DNA of 27,383 nt from a virus: the IMG/VR virus record IMGVR_UViG_3300036985_000421, positions 1 through 27,383 of that record, one strand, 5' to 3'. The notes beneath the pieces were generated by a model, which saw only the letters and a list, made by a program, of their open reading frames with translations, did no database searches and had not been told where the DNA came from. The translations under genes were made by a program, and so were the position numbers. Shown one piece after another: positions 26,827-27,303 of the stretch. Numbering within the stretch: the stretch's first letter is position 1; each line of letters starts with the position of its first letter.

Positions 26827-26911
26827 CTAGAATCGAGCTACAACGCATTTAAAATAAGATCCTATGTAATGCTATAGGAAAGTACTCTAAACTCGTTGTA
26901 GCTTCTTCTAG
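26827..26911. terminator. Long three-part inverted repeat between converging genes
   Basis: CTAGAA (26827-26832) pairs with TTCTAG (26906-26911), AGCTACAACG (26836-26845) with CGTTGTAGCT (26894-26903), and TCCTAT (26860-26865) with ATAGGA (26874-26879). The result is a rod of 6, 10 and 6 bp with internal loops. It begins 4 nt after the last plus-strand stop and ends 22 nt before the pqqA stop, so a two-way terminator or transcript end is likely. There is no strong T-run on either side, so a structured RNA or a recombination site remains possible. Confidence 0.6.
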
Positions 26912-26933: not shown

Positions 26934-27005
26934 CTATTTATTCATTACATACATTGTTACTTCGAAGCCAAAGCGCATTTCAGTTGCTTGAGGTGATGTC
27001 CACAT
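26934..27005 (-). CDS. pqqA: PqqA: precursor peptide of the cofactor pyrroloquinoline quinone
   Basis: The minus strand has AAGGAG, 6 nt, then ATG at 27005 and a 23-codon frame ending in TAG. The peptide begins MWTSPQATEMRFGF and continues with the PqqA signature E-V-T-M-Y. Glu15 and Tyr19 fall exactly at the residues that, in known PqqA, are joined by the radical-SAM enzyme PqqE (with the carrier PqqD) and become the PQQ skeleton. Length (known PqqA is about 22-29 residues), the start M-W and the end N-K also match the family. No pqqB, C, D or E is in the window, so the host must process it. PQQ serves methanol dehydrogenases and other quinoproteins. It is short enough to escape gene callers. 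A host-derived metabolic gene is the natural reading; a decoy peptide is an alternative. Confidence 0.9.
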   Translation of the reverse strand: MWTSPQATEMRFGFEVTMYVMNK

Positions 27006-27141
27006 GTTATTCTCCTTAATATATTACATACAAAATAGTTTGTGTCTAATAAATTGATAAATATTACACACAAATATAGTATAAAGTTATACTATACAAT
27101 TAGTATAGCATAACCTTAGTTTTATGTCATCAGTAAAACCA
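27006..27141 (-). promoter_or_regulatory. Probable pqqA control region with dyads and direct repeats
   Basis: The 136 bases upstream of pqqA contain a perfect inverted repeat TATAGTATAA-AG-TTATACTATA (27075-27096), an overlapping dyad CTATAC-AATTA-GTATAG (27092-27108), and a near-identical direct repeat, ATATTACATACAAAATAG (27021-27038) and ATATTACACACAAATATAG (27061-27079), exactly 40 bp apart. On the minus strand TTGTAT (27099-27094) and TATATT (27078-27073) could form a weak promoter with a 15-bp spacer inside the dyad. This is the layout of an operator overlapping a promoter. The TTGACT...TATAAT type used by the late genes is absent here. Confidence 0.55.
27075..27096. repeat. Perfect 10-bp-arm inverted repeat (operator-like)
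   Basis: TATAGTATAA and TTATACTATA are exact reverse complements separated by AG. A second dyad, CTATAC/GTATAG, shares bases 27092-27097 with it. A repressor or activator binding as a dimer is the simplest reading. Confidence 0.6.
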
Positions 27142-27303
27142 TTAACTTTCTATAATGTATTTACTGAACACTAGTCTCATGATCCCTACATGAATAACTA
27201 CTACCCATTTTAGATTATCCTCTTTGACATCGAACTCAGGGTTATCCATAAGTTCAGCACCAAAGACTAAACCACCTAGTGTTTCCCACGTAAATTCTAT
27301 CAT
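27142..27303 (-). CDS. Small hypothetical protein (53 residues)
   Basis: On the minus strand GGAGG (27315-27311) stands 7 nt before ATG (27303), and the frame runs 53 codons to TAA. The sequence starts MIEFTWETLGGLVFGAELMD, has an acidic middle (NPEFDVKEDN) and a hydrophobic beta-like end (LKWVVVIHVGIMRLVFSKYII). I recognise no family. It is too short for common gene-length cut-offs but has one of the best ribosome-binding sites in the window. It lies between the partial gene to its right and pqqA to its left, all on the minus strand, and is probably an early or middle gene. Confidence 0.65.
   Translation of the reverse strand: MIEFTWETLGGLVFGAELMDNPEFDVKEDNLKWVVVIHVGIMRLVFSKYIIES

Follow-up and report, generated by a model that had tools for sequence, protein, structure and literature searches.

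A podovirus genome fragment carries a 23-codon gene that encodes PqqA, the peptide substrate for synthesis of the cofactor PQQ. Sequence comparisons make it likely that this is a working phage-borne pqqA whose peptide would be made into PQQ by host enzymes, and that the gene has its own host-type promoter in many methylophages and probably here too. The virus would thereby probably top up a cofactor needed for methanol oxidation while it replicates. The fragment, hereafter the window, is a linear 27 kb IMG/VR virus record (IMGVR_UViG_3300036985_000421; 27,383 nucleotides).

The sequence-only reading of the window had described a 23-codon minus-strand gene preceded by AAGGAG and encoding Glu15 and Tyr19, all of which was confirmed by translation and by reading out the sequence (Table 1). 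Translation of 27005-26934 (- strand) gives MWTSPQATEMRFGFEVTMYVMNK, 23 residues from 72 bases, with Glu15-Val-Thr-Met-Tyr19 present. Its proposed identity as PqqA stood up to profile searches. The Pfam PqqA model PF08042 matches MWTSPQATEMRFGFEVTMYVMNK over its full length (profile 1-19; 39 bits, E 7.5e-10; curated cut-off 21.1 bits), and the NCBIfam equivalog model TIGR02107 scores 33.3 bits, above its curated cut-off of 20 bits. A six-frame search detected a single PqqA match in the window, at this gene, and the same search detected none in 14 control genomes. The peptide thus combines a profile score above cut-off, Glu and Tyr three residues apart, and a short ORF with a ribosome-binding site; by two curated models, it is PqqA. 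Sequence searches identified no relatives of the peptide in the PDB and no PHROGs family for it.

Table 1. Features at the pqqA end of the window
Feature	Position	Strand	Basis or remark
pqqA, 23 codons, encodes MWTSPQATEMRFGFEVTMYVMNK	26934..27005	-	PF08042 and TIGR02107 matches; conserved in methylophages
Shine-Dalgarno AAGGAG	27012..27017	-	6 nt ahead of pqqA ATG; read from sequence
Predicted -10 box TATACT, TG ahead	27102..27107	-	Starts exactly 37 nt after operator start
Predicted -35-like hexamer ATGACA, overlaps operator edge	27125..27130	-	Promoter call
Putative PQQ-regulon operator TAATGGTTTTACTGAT	27129..27144	-	Top host-matrix match in the 27 kb window, 10.36
Second operator-like site (weak) TAATGTATTTACTGAA, 24 bp away	27153..27168	+	Second-best matrix match in the window, 10.13; host promoters have a second element ~23 nt from the first
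53-codon ORF just upstream of pqqA	27142..27303	-	Conserved in near relative

Terminase, portal, capsid and tail genes on the contig constitute a podovirus structural module. The terminase is 78% identical to those of the OM43 phages MEP401 and MEP402 and of a Manatee Spring podovirus, and the portal comparison agrees. An EMRFGFEVTMY pattern was found mostly in Methylophilaceae among the GTDB genome matches listed and, together with the terminase relationship, upholds the earlier suggestion of a methylotroph host. The closest long relative of the window (43.9 kb, ~96% nucleotide identity over the shared part) encodes an identical PqqA peptide. In each of the two, a same-strand module that faces the structural module and appears, from its predicted products, to hold nucleotide-metabolism genes ends with pqqA. 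An ORF judged from its sequence to be HNH endonuclease-like separates pqqA from the structural module in the near relative (L433, 9925-10254); the window lacks this ORF, and the corresponding spot (26856-26885) is flanked by the inverted repeat AGCTACAAC...GTTGTAGCT. A complete circular relative with a 78% identical terminase, MW202697, lacks pqqA, so the gene is not essential or obligatory in this group. As a host-type metabolic gene found on a bona fide phage contig and also in sequenced isolates, pqqA qualifies as an auxiliary metabolic gene.

Searching 50,697 phage records by tblastn with the 23-residue peptide yielded matches only in methylophages, one Manatee Spring podovirus and two records named 'Acinetobacter phage'. 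The methylophages, namely P19250A, Venkman, MEP301, MEP401, MEP402 and four Melnitz isolates, represent clearly different phage lineages, between which the genomic place of pqqA differs. Venkman, MEP301 and Melnitz were the only OM43 phage isolates until MEP401 and MEP402 were added (PMC10580990). Every OM43 isolate named in that report carries pqqA, as does P19250A (KX815270.1, 28085-28153, - strand; locus L004, 4001-4069). The place of the gene is unannotated in P19250A, Venkman, MEP301 and MEP401/402, and the ORF annotated there in Melnitz runs along the opposite strand. One of the 'Acinetobacter phage' records (CAKLQF020000010.1, L008) contains a bacterial pqqABCDE operon beside a polyphosphate kinase gene and is probably host DNA.

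To the isolates, IMG/VR adds at least 120 contigs that match a degenerate DNA pattern for GFEVTMY, a survey that leaves phages of alphaproteobacterial methylotrophs outside its scope; all 120 among the matches listed contain complete PqqA frames of 23-25 codons. Frame, start and peptide recur across many different phages, far above chance. Two such pattern scans were run, each with at least 120 matches, and the loci are mutually related, so that counts from them are not fully independent; IMG/VR contigs may contain some host DNA, which isolates do not. Nine viral contigs (L012, L021, L026, L032, L033, L036, L083, L087 and L117) encode other PqqA types without the Methylophilaceae-type operator described below, and these are perhaps phages of other methylotrophs. 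The suspicion that related phages carry the gene unseen is borne out by its presence in all named OM43/LD28 phage isolates and at least 120 IMG/VR contigs, almost never annotated. The idea of a phage PqqA was not wholly new, a Lake Baikal methylophage having been described with one in 2020.

The second IMG/VR scan left the codons for Glu15 and Tyr19 free. Absence of these residues from close relatives had been named beforehand as grounds for rejecting the assignment; both are retained in 120 of 120 among the matches listed, as in the identical peptide of the near relative, with the Tyr codon divided between TAC (63) and TAT (57). At codons that the first pattern left free, pN was 0.14 and pS 0.55 among 106 sequences, indicating that phage pqqA is under purifying selection. 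Of 138 phage pqqA genes, 132 have an AGGA core ahead of the start, and the phage peptide is identical to a host peptide in 59 of 152 phage loci (both among the matches listed). These figures bear on the alternative, raised in the sequence-only reading, of a decoy that occupies PqqD/PqqE. Such a decoy or inhibitor might equally occupy the leader peptidase, and it would lower host PQQ and redirect metabolism. A stand-alone peptide without its own enzymes could behave so. The reactive residues would be dispensable for a decoy, yet Glu and Tyr are kept in all 120 of the matches listed; moreover, hosts themselves increase pqqA copy number. Because of this conservation, and because so many phage peptides equal those of the host, we consider the decoy improbable.

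A functional phage pqqA would depend on host pqqBCDE, as had been anticipated, and the distribution of the pathway fits this dependence. In a search that covered PqqD and PqqE, neither PqqD nor a PqqE reaching the cut-off was detected in any of 39 phage records with pqqA, which comprised isolates and long contigs, and on this basis none of them contains a complete PQQ biosynthesis locus. A PQQ alcohol dehydrogenase accompanies pqqA in one of the 39, a 72 kb contig (IMGVR_UViG_3300025120_009955, L051; 34049-35731, 608 bits). Each of the eight hosts tested has 1-12 copies of pqqA, and seven have a full PqqE, the eighth being a partial single-cell genome. Methylophilaceae hosts are known to possess 3-12 pqqA copies, the remaining pqq genes usually being present as one set (PMC4109929). 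We also entertained the idea that phages copy the host operon arrangement, and dropped it; none of the three pqqA copies of OM43 strain LSUCC0665 adjoins pqqE.

PqqE, helped by PqqD, links the Glu of PqqA to the Tyr (PMC5715301). During infection, host PqqD would bind the phage peptide, host PqqE would cross-link it at Glu15-Tyr19, and the remaining host Pqq enzymes would turn the product into PQQ. We infer that PQQ supply rises as a result, so that PQQ enzymes, here host methanol dehydrogenases, would stay charged and electron flow would continue while host transcription fails. That phages carry only the substrate may be understood from the stoichiometry, since one PqqA would be consumed per PQQ, whereas the enzymes are catalytic and persistent. 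In Acetobacter, overexpression of pqqAB raised PQQ by 29% and that of the full cluster eightfold (PMC7936290); therefore, PQQ limitation may be only partly a matter of peptide supply.

Reading the regions upstream of pqqA revealed a recurring motif. A matrix trained on host pqqA promoters only, of which 101 of 121 contained the motif, describes the palindrome CTMATGA-WWW-TCATKAG. In the complete genome of LSUCC0665, two of its top four sites belong to the two pqqA loci, one to the pqqBCDE operon and one to a small secreted ORF, pqqB promoters having been outside the training set. In two more hosts the operator is the best site of its own locus ahead of pqqB (six hosts were scanned, and the pqqB start was located by a simple pattern in two). 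A palindromic operator marking host pqqA and pqqBCDE promoters is new here; we found no earlier description of it in the open-access papers searched. The LSUCC0665 site at the secreted ORF (G001, 686724-686739) lies 18 nt ahead of its 106 codons, making the ORF a candidate member of the PQQ regulon. In another OM43-type genome (L340, G008:C2:8238), an exact copy of the operator stands upstream of genes for a cytochrome c and for a glucose/sorbosone dehydrogenase (GSDH)-family protein.

The operator also bears on whether the peptide might have another purpose, as a signal or as the substrate of a different radical-SAM enzyme. Genomic context leaves its partner open, since the rest of the pathway, searched as PqqD and PqqE, is missing from the phages. 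Against this, the peptide passes models specific for PqqA, hosts have PqqE, and pqqA is linked to pqqBCDE through the operator. We give this explanation very little credence.

When the host matrix was applied to phages, 82 of 138 loci among the matches listed had the best operator site of the whole locus in the 220 bp ahead of pqqA, versus 2.1 expected. Forty column-permuted matrices placed a mean of 2.8 and a maximum of 7 of the 138 loci in this category, and the reversed matrix placed 2. Scores of at least 8 were obtained at 6 of 24 loci with other peptide types versus 71 of the 114 remaining loci (among the matches listed). The Venkman operator is weak, and MEP401 and MEP402, the closest isolated relatives of the window, carry pqqA without an operator that can be recognised (scores -4.7 and -0.1); the motif is likewise missing from some other phages.

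Promoter geometry separates phages from hosts. A TATAAT-like box is 60 nt from the operator start in 23 of 101 host promoters, where a second element, TTCATGA, follows the first by ~23 nt; in phages, the -10 box is 36-38 nt from the operator start in 29 of 94 cases among the matches listed. From these distances, the single phage site would thus stand in for the proximal element of hosts, with its centre at about -41 relative to the predicted start of transcription. Class-II activators usually bind at about this position. In the window, an independent promoter prediction ranked ATGACA-17-TATACT highest in this region. The operator score of ~10.4 is modest and falls inside the 2-16 span of best scores in pqqA-less relatives; it is position and spacing that argue for this putative site. 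A structured RNA leader was considered and rejected, as folding of the pqqA leader was no better than that of shuffled sequences (z -0.69). A 16-pair hairpin with a T-rich tail (27118-27082, - strand) overlaps the predicted pqqA promoter and may end an upstream transcript.

Two further explanations concern how gene and motif came to be retained. In the first, pqqA is functional and the motif is an inherited piece of host pqqA leader that has no regulatory role in the phage. The modest match in the window and its absence from MEP401/402 would be expected under such a scenario; however, the motif is kept in those 82 of 138 listed loci despite strong synonymous divergence (pS ~0.55-0.58), and its distance to the -10 box is fixed and unlike the main host distance. 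We regard this as unlikely, though deserving of more weight than the other alternatives. In the second, a host pqqA fragment was acquired by chance along with its promoter, with no metabolic reason for its retention. Small size, absence from some relatives and the many phage peptides that equal host ones accord with a passenger of this kind, but pqqA occupies different places in unrelated lineages, is under purifying selection, retains its ribosome site in the 132 of 138 listed genes and has a promoter spacing systematically unlike that of the host, all of which make a passenger hard to credit. On balance, we lean slightly toward a model in which unrelated lytic Methylophilaceae phages plug a stand-alone pqqA into the host PQQ regulon through a class-II operator-promoter, and a host activator sensing PQQ or methanol demand sets the dose of the cofactor substrate that the phage supplies. 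Host PQQ control would then switch on phage pqqA through a version of the operator at the class-II activator position.

These observations establish pqqA as a widespread auxiliary gene of methylophages that was overlooked because it is only 23 codons long. P19250A, the best-known freshwater isolate, from which pqqA had been reported absent, was said to encode none of the reported auxiliary genes (PMC7678222); judging from its genome sequence, that statement is incorrect for pqqA. The Melnitz, MEP301, MEP401/402 and Venkman papers make no mention of a phage pqqA. The gene is among the virus-encoded genes of a 2026 reservoir-sediment survey, which in its accessible portion makes no connection to methylotrophs (PMC13188868). 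Carriage of the peptide gene suggests that methylotrophs can be short of PQQ for want of PqqA rather than of an enzyme, in keeping with the unexplained multiplicity of host pqqA. In addition, the PQQ-regulon operator common to hosts and phages is a testable candidate, and phage pqqA can serve as a simple marker of the host where viral contigs are unassigned.

The window gene shares with the PqqA family (PF08042/TIGR02107) its length of 23 residues, full-profile match and Glu-x-x-x-Tyr pair, and it resembles many Methylophilaceae copies in standing alone with a ribosome site; it differs in being phage-encoded and without pqqD/pqqE. Cyanophage psbA and similar auxiliary metabolic genes supply a precedent in which a phage carries a fast-consumed host part of an energy pathway. 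Phage pqqA would follow the same logic, except that it encodes a consumed peptide substrate and its promoter is apparently tied to a host regulon. The T4-like methylophages VP_139 and VP_266 from Lake Baikal, described in 2020, likewise encode a viral PqqA, which was proposed to support methanol oxidation (PMC7678222). Those phages also carry methanol dehydrogenase, whereas here pqqA occurs without it, in unrelated small phages. The closest parallel in hosts is their multi-copy pqqA (PMC4109929), which has the same peptide type, stand-alone copies and operator; hosts typically have two operator elements and a -10 box 60 nt from the main element, whereas phages have one, at 36-38 nt.
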